The position numbers and the translations under genes were made by a program. The notes beneath the pieces were generated by a model. The model searched no databases. It was not told the origin of the DNA and was given only the letters and a program-made list of their open reading frames with translations. A stretch of DNA of 64,000 bases from Dokdonia sp. PRO95 (lineage in GTDB: Bacteria; Bacteroidota; Bacteroidia; Flavobacteriales; Flavobacteriaceae): assembly GCF_000355805.1 (NCBI RefSeq), contig NZ_CM001837.1, positions 2,247,299 to 2,311,298 on the forward strand, in the 5' to 3' direction. Shown one piece after another: positions 2,964 through 47,055 of this stretch. The stretch's first letter is position 1, and each line of letters begins with the position of its first letter.

Positions 2964-3053
2964 ATATCTCATCGTGAGATGTTAAGGTTGTAAAACCTTA
3001 TAAATCAACCATTAGTATTGCTCTTTAGGGCATTAAAAATATTTACTAGAATT

Positions 3054-4619
3054 ATGGAACATAACGCACTCTTGTTTATCGTAGGTGTGATTGCACTAGC
3101 TTTAGGTTTTCTAATAGCAAAAATGCTAGAACGCAATAATGCATCGCAGATTATCAAACGCGCAAAGAAAAGTGCTCAGGGTATCTTAAAAGAAGCTAAG
3201 TCTGAGGGCGAGTCTATTAAAAAAGACAAAATACTTCAAGCCAAAGAAAAATTTATCGAGCTTAAAGCAGAGCACGAAAAAGTAATTCTAGGAAGAGATA
3301 AAAAAATGAACGATGCAGAGAAGCGCACTCGTGACAAAGAATCTCAAGTAAGTGGTGAGCTTTCGCGAAATAAAAAATTAAATCAATCTCTTGAAGATAG
3401 AATTAAAGATTACGATAAGCGTTTAGAATACGTTGATAAGAAAAAGGCCGAAGCTGAAAAAATGCACCAGAGTACGGTGCAGCAACTTGAGGTAATCTCA
3501 GGACTTTCTGCCGAAGAAGCAAAAAGTCAACTTGTAACTACTCTGAAGGACCAAGCCAAGGCAGATGCTATGAAGCACGTGCAAACTTCTATCGAAGAGG
3601 CAAAAATGACCGCAGAGCAAGAAGCCAAAAAGATTATCATTAACACCATACAACGCATAGGAACAGAGGAAGCAGTAGAAAACTGTGTATCTGTTTTTAA
3701 CTTAGAAAGTGACGATGTAAAAGGTAGAATTATAGGTAGAGAGGGTCGTAACATACGTGCTATAGAAGCAGCAACTGGTGTTGAGATTATTGTAGATGAT
3801 ACTCCAGAGGCAATTATACTTTCTTGTTTTGACAGTGTGCGTCGTGAGGTGGCTCGTTTATCACTACACAAACTTGTAACAGATGGTCGTATACACCCAG
3901 CAAGAATTGAAGAAGTTGTACAGAAAACAACGAGACAAATTGAGCAAGAGATTGTAGAAGTAGGAAAGCGCACAGTAATCGACTTAGGAATACACGGTTT
4001 ACACCCAGAGCTTATTAAAGCGGTAGGGCGTATGAAGTACCGTTCTTCTTATGGTCAAAACCTACTACAACACAGTAGAGAAGTTGCAAAACTTTGTAGT
4101 GTGATGGCAGCAGAGTTAGGCGTAAATGCAAAACTTGCTCGTAGAGCTGGACTTTTACACGATATAGGTAAAGTGCCAGATACAGAGACAGAAACACCAC
4201 ACGCAATCTTAGGAATGCAATGGGCAGAGAAGTATGGAGAGAAGCCAGACGTGTGTAATGCTATAGGTGCTCACCACGATGAGATTGAGATGACAAGTTT
4301 ACTTTCTCCTATTGTACAGGTTTGTGATGCTATAAGTGGAGCGAGACCAGGTGCACGCCGTCAGGTATTAGATTCATACATACAACGTCTCAAAGATCTT
4401 GAGGAAATAGCTTTTGGATTCCAAGGTGTTAAGAAGGCTTATGCTATTCAAGCAGGACGTGAACTACGTGTTATTGTAGAGAGTGAGAAAGTTAATGATG
4501 ATAAAGCTTCATCACTATCTTTTGAAATTTCTCAGAAAATTCAAACAGATATGACCTACCCAGGTCAAGTAAAAGTTACCGTAATACGAGAGACCAGAGC
4601 GGTCAATATTGCTAAGTAA
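3054..4619 (+). CDS. rny: Ribonuclease Y
   Basis: Membrane-anchored endoribonuclease that starts mRNA decay. In order: an N-terminal transmembrane helix ([17 protein letters not shown]), a long charged coiled coil up to about residue 200, a KH domain ([19 protein letters not shown]), and an HD domain with the metal ligands in [11 protein letters not shown] and HHDE. The frame is open from 3018, but Met at 3054 matches the family N-terminus directly before the helix, giving 521 residues. The preceding 300 bases carry the 6S-like RNA. A copy of the window-wide palindrome is read as ELSRN in the coiled coil. Confidence 0.95.
3361..3370. repeat. Palindrome copy 1 (core only), in rny
   Basis: Core TTTCGCGAAA with the left flank GC also matching the long form. 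Read as LSR in the coiled-coil region. Confidence 0.8.
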
Positions 4620-4646
4620 CTGTAAGATTTAGTTATTATTTTTATA

Positions 4647-4682
4647 AAGAGGCTAGCGTATTATGCGCTAGCCTCTTTTGTT
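4647..4682 (+). terminator. Terminator after rny
   Basis: A 12-bp perfect stem (AAGAGGCTAGCG / CGCTAGCCTCTT), a 7-base loop and a T-rich tail. Confidence 0.9.
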
Positions 4683-4809
4683 TTAAACGCCTTACGTTGA
4701 GTATTTCACAATCTAAAACCCATTAAGTAAGATTCTTATAGTAAAGTCTAAAAATCTTATTTAATTATATAAAAAAGGTAGTTTTTATATAATTAATTCT
4801 AAAAGTGTA

Positions 4810-4838
4810 TTGCTAGCTCAAATAAGTTGCTACCTTTG
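4810..4838 (+). promoter_or_regulatory. Promoter of the arginine operon
   Basis: TTG at 4810-4812, an 18-base spacer and a perfect TACCTTTG at 4831-4838. Transcription should start around 4842-4846, only a few bases before the leader-peptide ATG at 4849, so the leader would be translated from an almost leaderless mRNA. Confidence 0.8.
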
Positions 4839-4848
4839 ACCCATTAGT

Positions 4849-4959
4849 ATGAATAGAATAATTGCACATATCTCAAATAGCCTTACAGCACTTCTTGCTG
4901 CAAGACCTGCTATGCAATTACTTCCTGTTCCTGTACGACGCTTCCGCCGCCGCCCGTAA
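4849..4959 (+). CDS. Arginine-rich leader peptide (putative attenuator)
   Basis: A 36-codon ORF starts about 10 bases after a consensus promoter. It ends in VRRFRRRP: five of the last seven sense codons are Arg (CGA, CGC, then three CGC from 4936 to 4953), before a TAA at 4957-4959. It lies directly upstream of the whole arginine biosynthetic operon and upstream of pairable RNA, which is the layout of classical amino-acid leader peptides (trp, his, leu). The peptide itself probably has no function; ribosome stalling at the Arg cluster under arginine shortage would be the signal. I do not recall this leader being described. A longer frame on the opposite strand over the same bases lacks a promoter and protein character. 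Confidence 0.75.
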   Translation: MNRIIAHISNSLTALLAARPAMQLLPVPVRRFRRRP

Positions 4960-5005
4960 GGGTAGCTCATTAATGAGGGATGGTAGGTGAGTCCTATCCC
5001 GTTTT
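4960..5005 (+). promoter_or_regulatory. Candidate attenuator hairpins of the arginine operon
   Basis: Two mutually exclusive pairings can be drawn. A hairpin at 4977-5000 (GGGAT...TAGG with CCTATCCC) is followed by GTTTT and could terminate. Alternatively GGGTAG at 4960-4965 pairs with the same CTATCCC. A ribosome that reaches the stop codon would mask 4960-4965 and allow the first hairpin; one stalled at the first Arg codons would leave it free. A 12-bp palindrome CTCATTAATGAG sits between. No folding energies were calculated. Confidence 0.5.
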
Positions 5006-5058
5006 CCACAAAAGGAACCGTCACATTTTCAATATACATTTTAACTTAAATCATCGCT

Positions 5059-5676
5059 ATGCAAATTGTTGTAGCCACGATTTCGCACACACCATATGCT
5101 CAGATTATCTGTGATACCATCGCAGAGTCATCTAAGGTGCGTGGTACAGGAATCGCTCGTAGAACTCCAGAATATGTCATCTCAAAGATGGAAGCAGGTA
5201 ATGCTGTCATCGCTTTAGAGGGAGATGTTTTTGCGGGCTTCTGTTATATAGAAGCCTGGGGACACGAAAAATTTATTGCCAACTCTGGACTTATTGTTCA
5301 CCCAGACTTCAGAGGACAGGGACTTGCCAAAAAAATTAAAGGAGAAATATTTACGCTTTCGCGAAAGCGTTATCCAGATGCAAAAATCTTCGGAATCACT
5401 ACGGGTCTTGCCGTGATGAAGATTAATAGTGACCTAGGTTATAAACCCGTCACGTTTTCTGAACTCACAACAGACGAAAGCTTCTGGAAAGGTTGCCAAA
5501 CCTGTAAGAACTTTGATGTACTCACACGTACAGAGCAAAAGATGTGCTTATGCACAGGGATGCTCTATGATCCATCAAAAGAATCCAAATCCACAGAAAA
5601 AAATACTGTAAAGGCACCTGTTTTTAACAGGCTAAAACAAATAAAGGAAAAGCTATTCCTTAAAAAAAATAAGTAA
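5059..5676 (+). CDS. GNAT acetyltransferase at the head of the arginine operon (candidate N-acetylglutamate synthase)
   Basis: 205 residues. The GNAT domain covers about residues 1-140, with the acetyl-CoA loop in VHPDFRGQGLAKKIKGEI. The C-terminal part carries four cysteines (GCQTCKNF and KMCLCTGM) arranged like a small metal-binding knuckle. It is the first gene of an operon holding every other step from glutamate to arginine through acylated intermediates, yet neither argA nor argJ is present. It is therefore the best candidate for the first acylation. Its stop overlaps the argG start (TAATG). A palindrome copy is read as TLSRKR at about residues 99-104. Substrate and acyl donor (acetyl or succinyl) are inferred, not shown. 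Confidence 0.75.
   Translation: MQIVVATISHTPYAQIICDTIAESSKVRGTGIARRTPEYVISKMEAGNAVIALEGDVFAGFCYIEAWGHEKFIANSGLIVHPDFRGQGLAKKIKGEIFTLSRKRYPDAKIFGITTGLAVMKINSDLGYKPVTFSELTTDESFWKGCQTCKNFDVLTRTEQKMCLCTGMLYDPSKESKSTEKNTVKAPVFNRLKQIKEKLFLKKNK
5353..5370. repeat. Palindrome copy 2 (18 bp perfect), in the GNAT gene
   Basis: ACGCTTTCGCGAAAGCGT, read as TLSRKR immediately after the acetyl-CoA-binding helix. Confidence 0.92.
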
Positions 5677-6857
5677 TGAAAAAATTAATCTTAGCATATT
5701 CAGGAGGACTCGATACAAGCTATTGTGTAAAATATTTCACTGCAGAAATGGGGTATGAAGTACACGCTGTAAGTGTAAATACAGGTGGATTTACAGATCA
5801 AGAAATCGCAAATAACAAAGAGAAAGCGCTTGCCCTAGGAGCGACATCATATACTAATATAGATGCTATAGCTACCTTTTATGATACGGTGGTGAAGTAT
5901 CTAATTTTTGGTAATGTACTTAAGAACAACAGTTATCCACTTTCTGTAAGTGCAGAGCGTATCGTGCAAGCCATAGAGATTGCAAAATTTGCCAAAGCTC
6001 AAAACGCAGATGCTATTGCTCACGGTAGTACGGGTGCAGGTAATGATCAAGTACGTTTTGATATGACGTTCCAGACTATTGTGCCAGAATTAGAAATAAT
6101 AACGCCGATAAGAGATCAAACGCTTTCGCGAAAACAAGAAATCGATTATCTACAGAGTCACGGTATTTCTTGGTCTTGGGAGAAAGCACAATATTCTATA
6201 AATCAAGGTTTATGGGGTACAAGTGTAGGAGGTGCTCAAACCCTAACCTCACATCAAACACTGCCTGAGGATGCATATCCTAGTCAGCTAGAGGCTAGTG
6301 ATTCTCAAACCTTAAAAATTGGATTTACACAAGGAGAACCTACTTCGCTTAATGGAAAGCAAGGTTCACCAGTGGAGATTATAGAGCAACTAGAAGACAT
6401 TGCAAGTAAGTATGCCATAGGTCGCGGGATGCACGTGGGAGACACCATCATTGGTATAAAAGGAAGGGTAGGTTTTGAAGCTGCAGCTCCTATAATTATA
6501 CTAGAAGCACATCGTACTCTTGAAAAACACACACTTTCAAAATGGCAATTACAACACAAAGAAAACATCGCGTTGTGGTATGGTACTCACTTACACGAGG
6601 GATTATACCTAGAGCCTGTAATGAGAGACTTTGAAGCATTTTTACAAAGCAGCCAGAATACGGTGACTGGAGAAGTAGAAGTAGTATTACATCCATATAG
6701 ATTTGAGGTAGTAGGCATCACATCAGATTATGACCTTATGCAATCTAAGGTAGCGAGTTATGGAGAAGAAAACCAAGGATGGACCGCCGCCGAAGCAAAA
6801 GGGTTTATAAAAATACTAGGTAACCAGTCTAGAATCATAGCAAACCAAAACAAATGA
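5676..6857 (+). CDS. argG: Argininosuccinate synthase
   Basis: ArgG joins citrulline and aspartate with ATP to form argininosuccinate. The PP-loop nucleotide motif AYSGGLDTSYC is at residues 6-16 and the HGSTGAGNDQVRF citrulline/aspartate-binding segment is near residue 110. The length of 393 is typical. Its start overlaps the GNAT stop by one base and its TGA overlaps the argC ATG (ATGA), so the genes are translationally coupled. A palindrome copy is read as TLSRKQ near residue 150. Confidence 0.95.
   Translation: MKKLILAYSGGLDTSYCVKYFTAEMGYEVHAVSVNTGGFTDQEIANNKEKALALGATSYTNIDAIATFYDTVVKYLIFGNVLKNNSYPLSVSAERIVQAIEIAKFAKAQNADAIAHGSTGAGNDQVRFDMTFQTIVPELEIITPIRDQTLSRKQEIDYLQSHGISWSWEKAQYSINQGLWGTSVGGAQTLTSHQTLPEDAYPSQLEASDSQTLKIGFTQGEPTSLNGKQGSPVEIIEQLEDIASKYAIGRGMHVGDTIIGIKGRVGFEAAAPIIILEAHRTLEKHTLSKWQLQHKENIALWYGTHLHEGLYLEPVMRDFEAFLQSSQNTVTGEVEVVLHPYRFEVVGITSDYDLMQSKVASYGEENQGWTAAEAKGFIKILGNQSRIIANQNK
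6121..6133. repeat. Palindrome copy 3 (left-extended), in argG
   Basis: CGCTTTCGCGAAA, with the core at 6124-6133; the right arm is degraded (AC instead of GCG). Read as LSRK. Confidence 0.85.
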
Positions 6858-7828
6858 AAAAAATAGGAATCATAGGTGGTGCAGGTTATACTGCTGGGGA
6901 GCTCATTAGACTGCTTATTCATCACCCAGAAGTTGAGATAGATTTTATATATAGTACAAGTAATGCTGGTAATGCAGTAGGCGTGGTGCATCAAGATCTT
7001 GCTTATGTAGATCTTGCTTTTACAAGTGATGTAAACACAAAGGTAGATGTAGTTTTTTTATGTTTAGGTCACGGTAACTCTGGTAAATTTCTGGAGCAAT
7101 ATAGCTTTTCTTCAAGTACGAAGATCATTGATTTGAGTAATGAGTATAGACTTAAAAGTGATGTCACTTTTAAGGATAGAACATTTGTTTACGGCTTGCC
7201 AGAAATCAATAAAGAGAAAATTAAAAACGCGCAAAATATTGCAAATCCTGGATGTTTTGCAACTGCTATTCAGCTTGCATTATTGCCGCTGGCAAGCGCT
7301 TCTTTACTCAGCCAAGATGTGCATATTAATGCCGTAACAGGCGCTACGGGAGCCGGAGTAAAACCTAGTGCTACCACGCATTTTGGGTGGAGAGATAATA
7401 ACTTCTCACACTACAAGGCTTTTAACCATCAGCATCTTGGGGAGATAGGAGAGTCGGTTGTGCAGCTGCAAGAGAGTTTTAACAGCGAACTTCATTTCAT
7501 TCCGCAGCGTGGTAATTTTTCTAGGGGGATTTTTGCAACTGCCTACACATATTTTGAGGGTACGATTGAAGAGGCATATGCGCTTTATGAGGATTTTTAT
7601 AAGGATTCCGCTTTCGCGAAAGCGGTAAAAGCACCTTTACACCTCAAACAAGTGGTAAACACAAACTACTGCTTTATACACTTAGAAAAACACGGCAATA
7701 AATTATTGATTACCAGTGTGATTGATAATCTATTAAAAGGAGCGAGTGGTCAAGCTGTAGAAAATATGAATCTAATGTTTGGTTGGAAACAAGATACGGG
7801 ACTCCAACTCAAAGCAAGTTATTTCTAA
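6854..7828 (+). CDS. argC: N-acetyl-gamma-glutamyl-phosphate reductase
   Basis: NADPH-dependent reduction of acylglutamyl-phosphate to the semialdehyde. The N-terminal Rossmann motif is IGIIGGAGYTAGEL, the catalytic Cys is Cys134 in NPGCFATA, and the conserved His is in the HQHLGEI segment. 324 residues is normal for the short ArgC form. It overlaps argG by 4 bases. A palindrome copy near the C-terminus is read as SAFAKAVK, in a stretch expected to be variable. Confidence 0.94.
   Translation: MKKIGIIGGAGYTAGELIRLLIHHPEVEIDFIYSTSNAGNAVGVVHQDLAYVDLAFTSDVNTKVDVVFLCLGHGNSGKFLEQYSFSSSTKIIDLSNEYRLKSDVTFKDRTFVYGLPEINKEKIKNAQNIANPGCFATAIQLALLPLASASLLSQDVHINAVTGATGAGVKPSATTHFGWRDNNFSHYKAFNHQHLGEIGESVVQLQESFNSELHFIPQRGNFSRGIFATAYTYFEGTIEEAYALYEDFYKDSAFAKAVKAPLHLKQVVNTNYCFIHLEKHGNKLLITSVIDNLLKGASGQAVENMNLMFGWKQDTGLQLKASYF
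7608..7625. repeat. Palindrome copy 4 (18 bp perfect), in argC
   Basis: CCGCTTTCGCGAAAGCGG, read as AFAKA about 70 residues before the C-terminus. Confidence 0.92.
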
Positions 7829-7846
7829 TAGTTAAGATATAGACAT

Positions 7847-8635
7847 ATGAAAATAGCAATCATAGGAACGGGGAATTTAGGTCTTGCCATCGCAAAAGGA
7901 CTCATCACAAATAATGCGGTGACTAGCTTATATCTTACGAAAAGAGATATTTCTAGTATCGAAAAATGGGATGCGTACAAGGAAGTAACAACTACGAGTG
8001 ATAACCGTGAGGCTGTTGTAAAAAGTGACATTCTCATTTTTGCAGTACAGCCAGGTCATTTTGCAGGTATACTTGAGGATATTAAAGAATTGCTTACTGA
8101 GAAACACATTATTATCTCTACGATAACTGGTTTTAAAGTGCCACAAATCGCTGAAATTGTAGGAGACAATCAATTTATAATACGAGCGATGCCCAACACC
8201 GCTATTGCTGTAGGTCAAAGTATGACCTGTTTATGTAGTAATACACTAGGTGAAAAGCGCATTGCCATAGCCGAAGCCATTTTTAACAAACTAGGCACAA
8301 CTCTTATTATTCCAGAAGGACAAATGCAAGCTGCTACGGTAATCTGTGCGAGCGGTATTGCTTTTTGGATGAGATTGATAAGGGCAACTACGCAGGGAGC
8401 CATACAGTTAGGTTTTGACGCAAAAGAAGCGCAAGAACTTGCTATGCAAACCTGTCTAGGAGCTGCCACGCTCGTTATTAAATCTGGAAACCACCCAGAA
8501 GCAGAAATTGATAAAGTAACTACGCCTAAAGGCTGTACCATAGAAGGTCTCAATGAGATGGAACATTCAGGTTTAAGCTCTTCTCTCATAAAGGGAATCG
8601 TGGCTAGTTATCAAAAAATTAATAGCATCTCATAG
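7847..8635 (+). CDS. proC: Pyrroline-5-carboxylate reductase
   Basis: Last step of proline synthesis, P5C to proline with NAD(P)H. N-terminal Rossmann motif IAIIGTGNLGLAIAKGL; C-terminal P5CR dimerisation domain with TTPKGCTIEGLNEME, the family signature. 262 residues. It sits inside the arginine operon between argC and argD, 18 bases after argC. The semialdehyde of glutamate or ornithine links the two pathways, so co-expression makes sense. Confidence 0.93.
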   Translation: MKIAIIGTGNLGLAIAKGLITNNAVTSLYLTKRDISSIEKWDAYKEVTTTSDNREAVVKSDILIFAVQPGHFAGILEDIKELLTEKHIIISTITGFKVPQIAEIVGDNQFIIRAMPNTAIAVGQSMTCLCSNTLGEKRIAIAEAIFNKLGTTLIIPEGQMQAATVICASGIAFWMRLIRATTQGAIQLGFDAKEAQELAMQTCLGAATLVIKSGNHPEAEIDKVTTPKGCTIEGLNEMEHSGLSSSLIKGIVASYQKINSIS

Positions 8636-8653
8636 TGCAAAAAAATAGAGAGT

Positions 8654-9778
8654 ATGAAATTATTTGATGTATATCCACTTTATGATGTTGCTCCTGTTAA
8701 GGCACAGGGATGCTATGTGTATGATCAAAGTGGTCAAGAGTATCTTGATTTATATGGCGGTCACGCGGTGATCTCTATAGGTCACGGGCATCCTCATTAT
8801 ATAGAGAAATTAAAAACGCAGATGGATGCCATAGGGTTTTACTCTAACGCAGTTCAAAATCCGCTGCAGGTGGAGGTTGCTCAGAAATTAGGAGCGCTTT
8901 CTGGTTGTGATGATTATGATTTGTTTTTCTGTAACTCAGGAGCAGAGGCAAATGAGAACGGATTAAAACTAGCGTCATTTGACACAGGTAAAAGTCGCGT
9001 GCTAGCGTTTAAAAACAGCTTTCACGGGAGAACATCTGCCGCCGTAGCAGCTACTGATAATCCTAACATCGTGGCACCTATAAATGCACAACACAAAGTA
9101 TCCATACTTGATCTGGGCAATACAGAGCAACTAGAGGAAACTTTGCAACAAGGAGATTGCTGTGCAGTGATTTTAGAATTTATACAAGGTGTAGGAGGTT
9201 TAGATCAATCTACAGAAGTGTTTTATCAAGATGTTGCCGCGCTTTGTAAAAAGTATGATGTAAAACTCATTGCAGACGAGGTGCAATCTGGTTTTGGTAG
9301 ATCTGGAGAGTTTTTTGCTTTTCAGAAATATAATATCACGCCAGACATTATCACCATTGCAAAAGGAATGGGTAACGGTTTTCCTGTGGGCGGTGTGCTG
9401 GTGCATCACTCTATTGAGGCGCGATATGGGATGCTGGGAACGACCTTTGGCGGTAATCATCTTGCTTGCGCTGCTACACTGGCAGTTCTCGAAGTGATTG
9501 AGAAGGAGCATTTGATGGCACACGCAAAGGAAATAGAAACCTACTTTAGGGAGAAAGCACTTGCATTTGGCAATCGGGTGACTGTTAAAGGTCGCGGACT
9601 AATGCTAGGGCTAGACTTAGGCTACGATGTAGGAGCATTACGCAAAAAACTAATCTACGAGTACCACATTTTTACGGGAGGGGCAAAAAACAAACACGTG
9701 CTCAGAATACTTCCACCACTTACGATTCAAAAACCACAGATAGATTTACTATTTGAAGCATTACACAAGGAGTTATGA
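8654..9778 (+). CDS. argD: Acetylornithine (or succinylornithine) aminotransferase
   Basis: Class III PLP aminotransferase, 374 residues. The PLP phosphate-binding segment is NSGAEANE (about residue 94), the PLP-ring Asp is Asp208 in ADEVQSGFGRSG, and the Schiff-base lysine is Lys237 in IAKGMGNGFPVGG. It converts acylglutamate semialdehyde to acylornithine. Its stop overlaps the start of the transcarbamylase gene by 4 bases. Whether the natural acyl group is acetyl or succinyl is open; Bacteroides uses succinyl. Confidence 0.92.
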   Translation: MKLFDVYPLYDVAPVKAQGCYVYDQSGQEYLDLYGGHAVISIGHGHPHYIEKLKTQMDAIGFYSNAVQNPLQVEVAQKLGALSGCDDYDLFFCNSGAEANENGLKLASFDTGKSRVLAFKNSFHGRTSAAVAATDNPNIVAPINAQHKVSILDLGNTEQLEETLQQGDCCAVILEFIQGVGGLDQSTEVFYQDVAALCKKYDVKLIADEVQSGFGRSGEFFAFQKYNITPDIITIAKGMGNGFPVGGVLVHHSIEARYGMLGTTFGGNHLACAATLAVLEVIEKEHLMAHAKEIETYFREKALAFGNRVTVKGRGLMLGLDLGYDVGALRKKLIYEYHIFTGGAKNKHVLRILPPLTIQKPQIDLLFEALHKEL

Positions 9779-10740
9779 AGAACTACATATCTATAAATGA
9801 TATCCCAAATTTAGAAATGGCGATTAAAGAAGCGCTGTATATGAAGGAGTATCCGTACGCTTTCGCGAAAGCGGGAAAACAAAAAACCTTAGGTCTTCTA
9901 TTTTTTAACTCGAGCTTACGTACAAGATTAAGCACAGAAAAGGCTGCCAAAAACCTTGGGATGGAAACAATGACACTCAATGTAAATAGTGATAGCTGGC
10001 AACTAGAGTTTGAAGATGGTACTGTGATGGATGGCACAAAAGCAGAGCATATTAAAGAGGCTGCGCAGGTGTTATCGCAATATTGTGATGTGCTTGCCGT
10101 GAGAGCTTTTCCTGGGCTGGTAGATAAAAGTCAAGATGAGCTAGAGGTCGTACTTTCTGCATTTATGCAATATGGGAGTGTGCCGGTTGTAAATTTGGAG
10201 AGCAGTACGGCGCATCCGCTACAAGGCTTTACAGATGCAATCACGATTTACGAACTCACCGAAAGTTTACGTGCAGTAAATAAAAAACCTAATGTCGTGT
10301 TGACCTGGGCGCCACACCCTAAAGCCTTGCCGCACGCAGTTGCAAACTCATTTGTACAGACTATGCAAAAGGCAAATGTAAATTTCACAATTACTAATCC
10401 AGAGGGTTATGATCTTAACCCAGAGATACGTGGTGAAGTACCGGTGATTCATAACCAGAAAGAAGCCTTTGCAAATGCTGATATCATTTATGTAAAAAAC
10501 TGGAGCAGCTATGAAGATTATGGTAAGGTGCAATCGCAAGACAGTAACTGGATGATTAATGCCGAAAAACTTAAGGGAACCAATCAAGCCAAAGTAATGC
10601 ATTGCCTACCTGTGCGTCGTAACGTTGTCATTGCAGATGATGTGCTAGACACCGAGTCAAGCGCTGTAATCGAGCAAGCTGGTAATAGAACGTGGGCTGC
10701 ACAATGGGTGCTTAAAAACATACTCGACAATGATGAATAA
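9775..10740 (+). CDS. argF': N-acylornithine carbamoyltransferase (SOTCase/AOTCase family)
   Basis: Transfers carbamoyl from carbamoyl phosphate to acylornithine, the route used by Bacteroides (succinyl) and Xanthomonas (acetyl). The carbamoyl-phosphate loop is SSLRTRLS (residues 47-54) and the C-terminal HCLPVRRN is the family's ornithine-side motif. The specificity loop reads MDGTKAEH, with Ala90 where the Bacteroides enzyme has Pro90 (succinyl) and the Xanthomonas enzyme has Glu92 (acetyl), aligned from memory. 321 residues. It overlaps argD by 4 bases and argB by 11. A palindrome copy is read as YAFAKAG at residues 28-34. Confidence 0.92.
   Translation: MKNYISINDIPNLEMAIKEALYMKEYPYAFAKAGKQKTLGLLFFNSSLRTRLSTEKAAKNLGMETMTLNVNSDSWQLEFEDGTVMDGTKAEHIKEAAQVLSQYCDVLAVRAFPGLVDKSQDELEVVLSAFMQYGSVPVVNLESSTAHPLQGFTDAITIYELTESLRAVNKKPNVVLTWAPHPKALPHAVANSFVQTMQKANVNFTITNPEGYDLNPEIRGEVPVIHNQKEAFANADIIYVKNWSSYEDYGKVQSQDSNWMINAEKLKGTNQAKVMHCLPVRRNVVIADDVLDTESSAVIEQAGNRTWAAQWVLKNILDNDE
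9858..9873. repeat. Palindrome copy 5 (16 bp perfect), in argF'
   Basis: CGCTTTCGCGAAAGCG, read as AFAKA near the N-terminus, apparently replacing rather than lengthening the sequence relative to the Bacteroides homologue as I remember it. Confidence 0.92.
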
Positions 10741-11515
10741 ACAGCAACTTACCGTAGTGAAAATAGGTGGAGACATTGTAGATTATGATGAGCTACTCAC
10801 CTCATTTTACACGCATTTTAAGGCAATTTCTGGTCCAGCTATAATCATACACGGTGGAGGAAATAAAGCATCTACTTTACAAGAGCAGCTGGGTTATGTT
10901 CCAGTAAAAGTAGACGGGAGAAGGGTAACAGATGAGACTACGCTGGAGGTTGTGACAATGGTGTATGCTGGACTTCTCAACAAGAAACTTGTCGCTGGCC
11001 TGCAGGCAAAAGGTAAAAACACCATAGGACTTTCTGGAGCAGATGGTGATGCCGTGAGAGCGCATAAACGCGAAGTGACGACGGTAGATTATGGTTTTGT
11101 AGGAGATATTAATAGAGTGAATGTGAGTTTTATAAATGACCTCCTTTCTGATGGTAAAGTACCTGTGTTTTCTGCAATTACGCACGATGGTAATGGGCAA
11201 TTACTCAACACCAATGCAGATACACTCGCTGCCAAAATTGCGGTAGCAATGAGCTCTCTCTACAACGTTCAGTTGTTTTATTGTTTTACAAAACCAGGTG
11301 TTCTTGAAGATGTAAACAATGATGAATCGATAGTAACGCGCATAGATAAAGGGCTTTATAAAGAGATGAAAACAGCAGGACAAATATTTGAAGGTATGAT
11401 TCCAAAACTAGATACTGCTTTTGAGGCGCTAGATCAAGGCGTTATGAGAGTGCATCTGGGCGAGGTTGATATACTGAGTGATAACACTATAAAACACACG
11501 ACACTATGTCTTTAA
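10730..11515 (+). CDS. argB: Acetylglutamate kinase
   Basis: Phosphorylates N-acylglutamate. The amino-acid kinase fold is shown by VVKIGGDIVDY at the N-terminus, the IIHGGGNKAS glycine loop (about residue 40), and the DGRRVTDETTLEVV segment. 261 residues, close to the E. coli-type ArgB. It lacks an obvious N-terminal extension of the arginine-inhibited hexameric type, which suggests it is not the main allosteric target (inference). It overlaps the upstream gene by 11 bases and argE by 10. Confidence 0.93.
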   Translation: MMNKQQLTVVKIGGDIVDYDELLTSFYTHFKAISGPAIIIHGGGNKASTLQEQLGYVPVKVDGRRVTDETTLEVVTMVYAGLLNKKLVAGLQAKGKNTIGLSGADGDAVRAHKREVTTVDYGFVGDINRVNVSFINDLLSDGKVPVFSAITHDGNGQLLNTNADTLAAKIAVAMSSLYNVQLFYCFTKPGVLEDVNNDESIVTRIDKGLYKEMKTAGQIFEGMIPKLDTAFEALDQGVMRVHLGEVDILSDNTIKHTTLCL

Positions 11516-12576
11516 AAACTCAAATAGATAGCGCCGTAGGACTACTGCAATCACTCATTGAGACCCAAAGTTTTTCTAGTGAAGAAGATGGCACAGCTCT
11601 ACTTATCATAAACTGGCTAGAGGAGAAGGGGATTACGCTTTCGCGAAAGCGTAACAACATCTATGCATTTAATAAACATTATGACGCATCAAAACCGTTA
11701 TTGCTTCTCAACTCGCATCACGATACGGTTAAGCCAAATAAAGGATACACAAGAGATCCTTATAATGCCGAAATTAAGGACGGAAAATTGTACGGTCTAG
11801 GAAGTAACGATGCAGGTGCAAGTCTTGTAGGGTTGCTTACTGCGTTTGTACATTTTTATGAGCGTGAGGATTTGTCTCATAATATTGTAATTGTAGCTTC
11901 TGCCGAAGAAGAATCAAGTGGTCCTAATGGTCTTAATAGTATGCTTGCGCATCTGCCAGAGATAGATGTTGCCATTGTAGGCGAGCCTACACTAATGAAC
12001 CTCGCCATTGCCGAAAAGGGGTTGGTGGTTTTTGACGCCGTAGTAAAAGGAACGGCAGGTCACGCAGCTCATATAAAGGAGAATATGGCTATTTATAATG
12101 TGATAGAAACCCTGCAGTGGTTTGAAAATATAACTTTTGATAAAGTGTCTGATACGCTGGGAGCTACTAAGGTTACAGTTACTCAAATTAATGCAGGTAG
12201 TCAGCATAATGTAGTGCCTAGTCAGGTAGAGCTCGTTATAGATGTGAGAGTAAATGAACATTACAGCAATCAAGAAATCGCCGATTATATGGTGGCAAAT
12301 GTGCCGTGTGACACGATACAACCACGGTCATTGCGGCTAAATAGTTCGCGTATCCCAAAAGAGCACAAGCTCGTACAAGCAGGAATAGCGTTAGGCAGAG
12401 AGACCTATGGATCACCTACCTTATCTGATCAAGCCTGCTTGTCTTGCCCATCTTTAAAACTAGGTATAGGTGACAGCACTCGCTCTCATATGGCAGATGA
12501 GTTTGTCTATGTACACGAGATAGAGCAGGGGATTCCATTATATATTGATCTTCTAGAAAAATTTTTAACCGCATAA
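11506..12576 (+). CDS. argE: Acetylornithine deacetylase family M20 amidohydrolase
   Basis: Removes the acyl group from acylcitrulline (when the transcarbamylase acts on acylornithine, as here) or acylornithine. Two-zinc M20 motifs are present: LLLNSHHDTVKP (His72, Asp74 region), GSNDAGAS (bridging Asp102), SAEEESSG (general base Glu134 and Glu135) and VGEPT (Glu160). The dimerisation domain TAGHAAH follows. 356 residues. It overlaps argB by 10 bases. A 22-bp palindrome copy, the longest in the window, is read as ITLSRKRN at residues 43-50. Confidence 0.92.
   Translation: MSLKTQIDSAVGLLQSLIETQSFSSEEDGTALLIINWLEEKGITLSRKRNNIYAFNKHYDASKPLLLLNSHHDTVKPNKGYTRDPYNAEIKDGKLYGLGSNDAGASLVGLLTAFVHFYEREDLSHNIVIVASAEEESSGPNGLNSMLAHLPEIDVAIVGEPTLMNLAIAEKGLVVFDAVVKGTAGHAAHIKENMAIYNVIETLQWFENITFDKVSDTLGATKVTVTQINAGSQHNVVPSQVELVIDVRVNEHYSNQEIADYMVANVPCDTIQPRSLRLNSSRIPKEHKLVQAGIALGRETYGSPTLSDQACLSCPSLKLGIGDSTRSHMADEFVYVHEIEQGIPLYIDLLEKFLTA
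11633..11654. repeat. Palindrome copy 6 (22 bp perfect, longest), in argE
   Basis: The CGCTTTCGCGAAAGCG centre is extended by TTA / TAA on the two sides. Read as TLSRKR between the helix and first strand of the M20 domain. Confidence 0.93.
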
Positions 12577-12630
12577 ATAATAAGGGTTGTTGCAATAGTG
12601 TGAACAGCATAACCTTCTAATAAGATACCT

Positions 12631-13914
12631 ATGAAACTTTGGGAAAAAGGAATACCAACAGATCAAAAAATAGAAGCATTTACGGTGGGTAATGATCGTG
12701 AGATTGATATCCATATTGCTAAGTATGATTTGCTAGCCAGCAAGGCACACGCAACAATGCTTGCATCTGTAGGCCTACTTACACAAGAGGAGAGCGAGCA
12801 GTTAAATAAGCAATTAGACCTTATGCTCAATCAAGAGCAGGAAGGAGCATTTGTTATAGAAGCAGATTTTGAAGATGTACATTCTAAGATAGAAAGTGAC
12901 CTTGTAAAAGCACTGGGAGATACCGGTAAAAAAATACACACAGCGAGATCTCGTAATGACCAAGTTCTTGTGGCGTTAAACCTTTATTTCAAAGCAGAGT
13001 TATCTCAAATAACTGAAGGCGTAGAGAAGTTGTTTGACACACTTCTCAAACTTGCAGAGGCGCATAAAAACACCTTGCTGCCTGGATATACGCACCTTCA
13101 AGTGGCAATGCCGTCATCATTTGGGCTTTGGTTTTCTGCCTATGCGGAGTTACTTATAGATGATCTTTACTTACTCAAAGCAGCGCAGAAGGTAGTAGAT
13201 CAAAATCCGCTGGGGAGTGCAGCTGGATATGGATCTAGTTTTCCTATCGATAGAGAGATGACTACCGCGCAACTTCAATTTGCCGATTTGAAATATAATG
13301 TAATTGCAGCCCAACTCTCAAGAGGGAAGTCTGAGCGTACGGTAACGCAAGCAGTTGCAAATATTGCAAATACCTTGAGTCGTTTTGCAATGGATATATG
13401 TTTGTACTGCTCTCAAAATTTTGGATTCATTAAGTTTCCAGATGCACTTACTACGGGCAGTAGTATTATGCCGCACAAAAAGAATCCAGATGTATTCGAG
13501 CTTTTGCGTGGTAAGTGTAATCAGTTACAAGCAATCCCACAGGAAATGATTATGATAACAAATAATTTGCCAAGTGGTTACCATAGAGATTACCAGTTAC
13601 TCAAAGAAAATGCTATCAAGTCTGTTGAGGATCTCAAAGTAGTGCTAGATATTTTTGAGTTCTCTATTGCTCAGGTACAAGTGCAGGATGTTAATCTAGA
13701 TGATGAGAAGTATCAACACCTCTTTACAGTAGATGCTATTAATGATCTTGTAACCGCAGGAGTGTCTTTTAGAGAAGCATATAAGCAAATAGGGGAGCAG
13801 GTAGAAAATGGTTCTTTTAAAGCGGGAAATACAAAGGAGCACTCACACTTAGGAAGTATACATAACCTAGGTCTAGATAAGATACAAGCCAAATTTGACA
13901 AGGCGGTATCTTAA
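12631..13914 (+). CDS. argH: Argininosuccinate lyase
   Basis: Final arginine step, argininosuccinate to arginine and fumarate. The fumarase/aspartase superfamily signature GSSIMPHKKNPD is present (about residue 277), as are HTARSRNDQ and TVTQAVANI segments. 427 residues, slightly shorter than the E. coli enzyme. A 54-base gap separates it from argE with no clear terminator, so it is probably the last gene of the operon. No palindrome copy occurs in it. Confidence 0.95.
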   Translation: MKLWEKGIPTDQKIEAFTVGNDREIDIHIAKYDLLASKAHATMLASVGLLTQEESEQLNKQLDLMLNQEQEGAFVIEADFEDVHSKIESDLVKALGDTGKKIHTARSRNDQVLVALNLYFKAELSQITEGVEKLFDTLLKLAEAHKNTLLPGYTHLQVAMPSSFGLWFSAYAELLIDDLYLLKAAQKVVDQNPLGSAAGYGSSFPIDREMTTAQLQFADLKYNVIAAQLSRGKSERTVTQAVANIANTLSRFAMDICLYCSQNFGFIKFPDALTTGSSIMPHKKNPDVFELLRGKCNQLQAIPQEMIMITNNLPSGYHRDYQLLKENAIKSVEDLKVVLDIFEFSIAQVQVQDVNLDDEKYQHLFTVDAINDLVTAGVSFREAYKQIGEQVENGSFKAGNTKEHSHLGSIHNLGLDKIQAKFDKAVS

Positions 13915-46830: not shown

Positions 46831-46838
46831 TATATTTG
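46831..46838 (+). promoter_or_regulatory. -7 element of the riboswitch-btuB transcript
   Basis: TATATTTG fits TAnnTTTG and sits about 10 bases before the riboswitch begins. No well-placed TTG box. Confidence 0.65.
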
Positions 46839-46848
46839 TGCCGAATTT

Positions 46849-47055
46849 TGGTTCTAATGTGCTACACGAGCACGGAGGATTAATAGGGAATTCCGTTAAA
46901 AACGGAAGCTGTTCCCGCAACTGTAAGCTAAGCCCTTTATGGGTTTGTTACTACTACAAAGCCACTGTCACAAGGTGTTGTGATGGGAAGGTGTAACAAA
47001 AGCAAGCCAGGAGACCTGCCACAATTCTTAATTAAAATCAAGCGACTCTCGGGTA
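46849..47055 (+). promoter_or_regulatory. Cobalamin riboswitch
   Basis: The adenosylcobalamin riboswitch core is clear: ATAGGGAA (46884-46891), CTGTTCCCGCAACTGTAA (about 46910), GCCACTG (46961-46967), GGGAAGG (46985-46991) and the B12 box AAGCCAGGAGACCTGCC (47004-47020). After it, CTCTCGGGTAAAGAG forms the likely P13 hairpin used in the kissing-loop expression platform, only about 15 bases before the btuB start, so B12 binding probably blocks translation. Confidence 0.95.

Follow-up and report, generated by a model that had tools for sequence, protein, structure and literature searches.

Introduction

In leaders of the trp/his type, codons for the amino acid of the pathway lie in an ORF immediately after the promoter, and in TnaC the nascent chain senses tryptophan. 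The speF leader of Salmonella (orf34/SpeFL) contains Arg codons and is followed after its stop codon by a hairpin, with Rho and RNase G acting together (PMC6386406). In Staphylococcus aureus, the arginine-sensing uORF rbfL covers the ribosome-binding site of the next gene (PMC13009471). A paper on Flavobacterium psychrophilum remarks in general terms on leader-peptide attenuation ahead of amino-acid operons, and its main text names neither an arginine leader nor the RNA described below (PMC9723704). No arginine leader of Bacteroidota was found among the open-licence papers searched. This agrees with an earlier reading of the present locus from its letters alone (the sequence-only reading), which had claimed that no Arg leader of this kind was described in Bacteroidota; the general remark in the F. 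psychrophilum paper came nearest (PMC9723704).

Here we describe an Arg-codon leader and two RNA hairpins, H1 and H2, ahead of the arg operon of Dokdonia sp. PRO95 and other Flavobacteriaceae. As in trp/his-type leaders, codons for the amino acid of the pathway stand in an ORF directly behind the predicted promoter; unlike in those leaders, a U-tract terminator and a covarying antiterminator are lacking, and the loop of the downstream hairpin is nearly fixed. The locus resembles speF orf34/SpeFL in having a short ORF near the predicted transcription start, with consecutive Arg codons that would transmit the arginine level, and a hairpin downstream of the stop codon, where speF uses Rho and RNase G and not an intrinsic attenuator (PMC6386406). 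However, the speF leader controls ornithine decarboxylase instead of arginine synthesis (PMC6386406). The two RNA structures have no known relationship, and the leader peptide, examined for DUF2618 (PF10940), gave no Pfam match, a result whose sensitivity is limited by the 36-residue query. As with rbfL, pausing at Arg codons of a short uORF would report arginine availability (PMC13009471); unlike in rbfL, at least 49 nt separate the H2 tip from the start of the next gene (GNAT) at the named loci. The remark on F. psychrophilum concerns the same family and claims leader-peptide attenuation in general (PMC9723704), and the Flavobacterium-like genomes examined here (g143) were without the element. 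We class the Arg leader with its hairpins as a form of amino-acid leader control outside the classical attenuator family.

The Arg leader and its operon

The window, that is, the whole stretch of 64,000 nucleotides that was analyzed, contains the following features.

4810 to 4838, plus strand: predicted promoter of the sigma-A type (Bacteroidota), read in the sequence, with TTG at 4810-4812, an 18-nt spacer and the -7 box TACCTTTG at 4831-4838
4849 to 4959, plus strand: Arg-rich leader ORF of 36 codons, encoding MNRIIAHISNSLTALLAARPAMQLLPVPVRRFRRRP and ending in a stop codon, with conserved frame, length and C-terminal Arg cluster
4936 to 4953, plus strand: Arg codon cluster, the proposed sensor (CGA CGC TTC CGC CGC CGC, codons 30-35)
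4951 to 4964, plus strand: hairpin H1, a GCCC-GUAA-GGGU core over the last Arg and Pro codons and the UAA stop, part of the covariance model
4977 to 5000, plus strand: hairpin H2, with the stem GGGAU/AUCCC (4977-4981 with 4996-5000), a 5' bulge and the tip GG-UGAGU-CC at 4986-4994
5001 to 5058, plus strand: spacer between H2 and the GNAT gene, G-poor and A/U-rich, with no U-tract directly after H2
5059 to 13914, plus strand: putatively regulated operon of GNAT, argG, argC, proC, argD, argF', argB, an argE/dapE-like gene and argH

The promoter elements read earlier (TTG, N18 and TACCTTTG) were all found at 4810-4838, and the ORF at 4849-4959 translated as claimed, ending in RRFRRRP before the stop. 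The TAnnTTTG box and the start of the leader ORF are 10 nt apart, leaving a 5' UTR of nearly nil, with a few nucleotides at most between the predicted promoter and the leader ATG. The leader ORF lies 100 nt upstream of the GNAT-argG operon. The -7 box and its position, just upstream of the ORF, were kept in the close relatives L003-L008. The ORF and its Arg cluster, whose lack of conservation would have told against the sequence-only reading by its own account, were retained as well.

The downstream genes had been taken for a complete arginine operon, and NCBIfam assigned them to arginine biosynthesis: argG, argC, proC, argB, argH and argF', the N-acetylornithine carbamoyltransferase, scored above the curated cut-off, and argD, a best match, and the argE/dapE-like gene scored below it. 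The GNAT gene gave two weak GNAT matches in Pfam and no NCBIfam family. The gene directly upstream of the leader encodes RNase Y (3018-4619), and its terminator at 4646-4678 was the sole terminator-like site in 4600-5200. Of 119 Flavobacteriaceae genomes, none contained the C-terminal ArgR domain (PF02863), and 8 of 14 control genomes, one Bacteroides included, were positive for it; the repressor by which an ArgR-controlled arg operon would be recognized was therefore missing from all 119.

Conservation of the leader and hairpins in Flavobacteriaceae

A search of relatives with the GNAT protein yielded 22 loci, 17 in Flavobacteriaceae and 5 in other families. At each of the 17 loci of the family, a short ORF whose C-terminal end carries an Arg cluster occupied the same position, a hairpin lay over or adjoining the end of the cluster, and the string GGTGAGTCC followed about 30 nt further downstream. 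In the other families, an Arg-rich ORF was present at four of the five loci and the string at none. Of 397 Flavobacteriaceae genomes searched for the pattern of two hairpins, 157, belonging to 103 of 237 genera, contained it, nearly always as one copy; the backwards control of the pattern gave a mere handful of matches. Because the pattern search fixed the loop sequence, we examined 40 loci that had the GNAT gene and lacked the strict pattern: in most of them the element was present, either with GGUGNGUCC (N = A, U or C) or with other pairs in H1, and nearly all of the remainder were recovered by the covariance model. When named Flavobacteriaceae loci were collected with no query other than the GNAT protein, the same model found the element upstream in each of the 80, among them Maribacter, Zobellia, Gelidibacter, Tenacibaculum, Winogradskyella, Polaribacter and Leeuwenhoekiella. 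The genus g143 (probably Flavobacterium) has kept the GNAT gene, and there the element is absent.

In the genome of the window the model gave one match, and the motif is single-copy and arg-specific there. Order-wide, two weak matches outside the family were judged from their neighbours to be chance. Rfam returned no match at the gathering score for the leader RNA. Elsewhere in the window, Rfam identified a cobalamin riboswitch at 46832-47037 (RF00174, 89 bits).

Conservation had been proposed as the check on the short ORF and its Arg codons, and the ORF frame, the Arg cluster and the hairpins recurred in hundreds of relatives. On this count the recurrence of the frame, the cluster and the two hairpins is far beyond chance, and the comparisons indicate that the Arg leader with its two-hairpin RNA is real, widespread and not in Rfam.

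Codon usage of the leader and compensation in H1

In the 10 codons that precede the H1 codon, 220 distinct loci showed 3.1 Arg in the ORF frame, compared with 0.5 and 0.3 in the two alternative frames, and no in-frame stop. The N-termini of the leaders varied freely beyond the genus. Outside H1, 91% of the leader Arg codons were CGY (CGT/CGC) compared with 29% in the GNAT genes of the same loci, in which AGA made up 39% of the Arg codons (Fisher p about 5e-35 for CGY/CGA versus other codons in leaders versus GNAT genes, the counts not being phylogenetically independent). These data indicate that the leader ORF is under selection. The Arg-rich peptide that it encodes is genuine and conserved, and it is linked to the arg operon.

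In H1, positions 4952-4955 pair with 4960-4963, and compensatory GCAC/GUGC variants were present among the loci. The loop held the stop codon in 199 of 220 loci; in the other 21 the frame ran through H1 and stopped 9-30 nt later. In seven loci, a C-G pair of the stem was replaced by A-U, which changed the last residue from Pro to Thr (RRT before the stop). Compensation of the stem at the cost of this residue points to selection on the RNA at H1.

We considered whether the peptide itself might be the sensor, the C-terminal RRRP and stop responding to arginine in the exit tunnel or at termination in the manner of TnaC. Leaders that stop within H1 did nearly always end in Arg-Pro-stop. However, Pro gave way to Thr where the H1 stem was compensated, the peptide continued in 21 of 220 loci, and the rest of it was not conserved beyond the genus; the conserved residues expected of a TnaC-type arrest were not seen among these variable and read-through peptides. 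The strong bias among synonymous codons also points to tRNA: a peptide sensor has no need of a CGY bias, and a sensor of the charged CGY-reading tRNA does. The bias (91% versus 29%) therefore suggests that charged tRNA, not peptide identity, is probably read, and nascent-peptide arrest appears highly unlikely.

Covariation and layout of H2

H2 consists of a variable stem, a bulged A on the 5' side, two G-C pairs and a UGNGU loop. The tip, GG-UGNGU-CC (GGUGNGUCC; N = A, U or C), was nearly invariant, and the stem covaried freely. The arms of a locus paired at -6.3 kcal/mol with each other and at -3.4 ± 0.14 kcal/mol when swapped between loci. In an alignment of 33 loci, six of the eight pairs showed two-sided changes, 95% of the cells were paired, and the covariation score was reached by none of 500 shuffles. 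A second alignment, of 86 further loci, showed two-sided changes in 8 of 13 pairs, of which one belongs to H1 and another to the tip; this alignment was fitted to the covariance model and leans towards it. The folding energy of the single sequence was unremarkable (z -0.7). Taken with the changes in H1, the covariation indicates that H1 and H2 are RNA under selection.

The arms of H2 form an inverted repeat, which could also be a DNA site for a transcription factor, with the ORF incidental. G-U pairs, which are mismatches in DNA, were abundant in the covarying stem (e.g., UG 41 and GU 19), and this favours RNA over a DNA palindrome. Furthermore, H2 lies about 140 bp inside the predicted transcript and ArgR is absent, so that a DNA operator is scarcely credible.

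The layout of H2 instead suggests recognition by a factor. In outline it resembles the operators of phage coat proteins. A sharper version of the sensor reading set out below would make H2 the operator of a dedicated RNA-binding protein, possibly one responsive to arginine or an arg enzyme, with the leader ribosome doing no more than gating access to it. The near-invariant UGNGU loop of GGUGNGUCC and the bulged A beside two G-C pairs on a freely drifting stem favour such an operator, as does locus L286, whose tip, GAUGUGUUC, retains UGNGU and has a compensatory change in the closing pair. Against it stand the lack of a candidate protein and the loop GGUGCGCCC found at the edge of the family, and the likeness to phage operators is only an analogy of layout. 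We regard a dedicated protein as a tentative possibility.

Two other functions were considered for the tip and rejected. Mimicry of a Shine-Dalgarno sequence (AGGUGA against the 16S 3' end) was weakened by the variable base, which is A, U or C, and a GUG start inside H2 had no conserved frame when read by eye. Elsewhere in the genome, the other 19 GGTGNGTCC sites had no comparable stem; the best had five pairs and lay beside a palindromic repeat. A short palindrome (GCTTTCGCGAAAGC and near forms), possibly a repeat family, recurs in this genome near the centre of L331, at about 2985-3000 of L316 and at 5357-5370 of the window, where the copy is inside the GNAT gene.

Pairings and terminators downstream of the leader

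The sequence-only reading had placed two mutually exclusive pairings around 4960-5000. This was not borne out: H1 and H2 have no base in common, and the MFE structure of 4945-5005 contains both. The single competing hairpin in the window (4966-4969 with 4974-4977) has only base 4977 in common with H2. A scan of segment pairs downstream of the ORF revealed a large excess for H2 only. An antiterminator between the linker and an H2 arm (UUCUAU...AUAGAA) was convincing by eye and was rejected, its energies being -1.91 kcal/mol for own, -1.88 for swapped and -1.86 for shuffled segments. The H2 tip could also pair with the Arg codons (GGUG with CGCC), and the energy was good on average because both partners are nearly invariant; several H1 variants of the GCAC type and the GAUGUGUUC variant weaken this pairing, and we do not propose it.

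The terminator scan of 4600-5200 found no intrinsic terminator after the leader, and the consensus of 220 loci had no U-tract after H2. In the consensus, H2 was followed on the 3' side by GC, three to four pyrimidines, an A-rich run and then a U-rich stretch in which G is scarce as far as the GNAT start. G and C made up 6% and 19% of the last 50 nt ahead of GNAT; ahead of 24 other genes in the window they made up 12% and 15%. The same scan did detect the terminator of the his operon in this genome, where a hairpin of 14 pairs and a U-run come after the textbook His leader MKLNKTHHHHTTAIAQAR (HHHH) upstream of hisG (L315:1200-1316). Leader control of amino-acid operons thus exists in this cell, as far as sequence can tell. 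No leader was seen ahead of ilvD in the same genome.

Classical attenuation of the trp/his type, in which H2 would be the terminator and a stalled ribosome would permit an antiterminator, has in its favour a leader directly behind the predicted promoter in which codons for the operon's amino acid are clustered, a hairpin between the leader and the first gene, and a his operon that by sequence works in this way. However, no hairpin with a U-tract was found before the first gene by a scan that detects the his one, GC, U/C and an A-rich run follow H2 at the 220 loci, and the putative antiterminator showed no covariation and no excess over swapped or shuffled segments. Because these two defining features were tested and not found, we do not file the element as a classical attenuator, and the lack of a U-tract argues for an output other than classical intrinsic attenuation, which we consider unlikely here. 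Of the earlier interpretation, the Arg leader peptide conserved with the arg operon held, and the attenuator with exclusive hairpins did not. The two conserved hairpins are compatible with each other, which does not support the stall-switched, exclusive pair that had been claimed. H1 and H2 covaried in the aligned RNAs, a comparison that had been proposed; no antiterminator or other alternative pairing did so.

Proposed mechanism

We therefore favour, as likely, a reading in which the leader is a cis-acting arginyl-tRNA sensor for the arg operon and H2 is not an intrinsic terminator. Transcription would start beside the leader ATG, and a ribosome would translate the ORF behind RNA polymerase. 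When arginyl-tRNA (mainly the CGU/CGC isoacceptor) is scarce, the ribosome would stall on the CGY cluster, on top of H1 or immediately ahead of it; when the last Arg codons (4936-4953) are in its A site it would cover or abut H1, which would therefore be held open. When arginyl-tRNA is plentiful, the ribosome would reach the stop in the H1 loop and leave, and H1 would re-form. With the A site on the stop (4957), the leading edge, estimated from the ribosome footprint at about 4970, would fall short of H2, which begins at 4977, about 20 nt past the stop, and completed translation would let H1 and H2 stand together in the interval between ribosomes. The state of H1 and H2 would set read-through, stability or translation of the operon, and the two standing together would presumably lower its expression. 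The output of H2 is probably through a bound factor, Rho or RNA decay, and the G-poor RNA past H2 would suit the entry of Rho or a nuclease, much as Rho and RNase G act at speF (PMC6386406). The sequences themselves show the ORF, the Arg cluster, the codon bias, both hairpins, their linkage to the arg operon and the lack of ArgR and of a U-tract; stalling, the direction of the response (starvation turning the operon on) and the output step are what we infer from this arrangement.

The tRNA-sensor reading is supported by the RNA upstream of all 80 GNAT-fetched loci, its occurrence as a variant in nearly all of the 40 loci without the strict pattern, the covariation of H2, the compensation in H1, the CGY bias and the lack of ArgR (0/119), as well as by the HHHH his leader with its terminator in the same genome and the single-copy, arg-specific motif. 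Against it, no alternative pairing covaries, the single-sequence z is -0.7, g143 keeps GNAT without the motif, and in the 21 of 220 read-through leaders the terminating ribosome would be nearer to H2 or on it.

A broader claim, to which we give somewhat less than an even chance, is that of a family-wide class of cis-regulatory RNA, in which the ribosome on an Arg-codon leader, sometimes one of two in series, would control a hairpin with a bulged A and a UGNGU loop that is read by a factor. It would provide arginine control in Flavobacteriaceae without ArgR by neither intrinsic attenuation, T-box, riboswitch nor repressor. The element is a concrete candidate for the control of arginine synthesis in a large bacterial family without the arginine repressor. 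It also adds a covarying RNA that Rfam does not contain; the usual terminator half of a leader attenuator is replaced in it by a hairpin whose loop is nearly fixed. A protein, Rho, a nuclease or the ribosome may be what reads this hairpin.

Tandem and divergent Arg leaders

A second, tandem Arg-rich leader ORF was observed further upstream in 76 of 156 loci, about half, some 230-310 nt before the GNAT start (e.g., MNTSKNKTRIITIAPPVRRRR and a stop codon; L011, L013, L014, L016, L026-L031 and others). Its distribution was consistent within genera: it was present in Gelidibacter, Tenacibaculum and Christiangramia and absent from Maribacter, Allomuricauda, Zobellia and Dokdonia. A hairpin at the stop of this upstream leader was not above shuffles. 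In tandem loci, a U-rich stretch lies just before the start of the second leader.

At L019, in another family of Flavobacteriales, the Arg-rich ORF upstream of GNAT ends in TRRCAMILYRRRPVRV and a stop codon, followed by the hairpin AAUGGU-UACGU-ACCAUU and UUUUAUUU, which together resemble a terminator of the more classical kind. Arg-rich ORFs were also seen at L018, L022 and L313, where different sequences follow them, and the output of the arg leader may have changed between families. At L289 and L295, a different Arg leader, ending in RRRIRE or RRRRCRE before the stop and without the GGUGNGUCC hairpin, lies upstream of GNAT.
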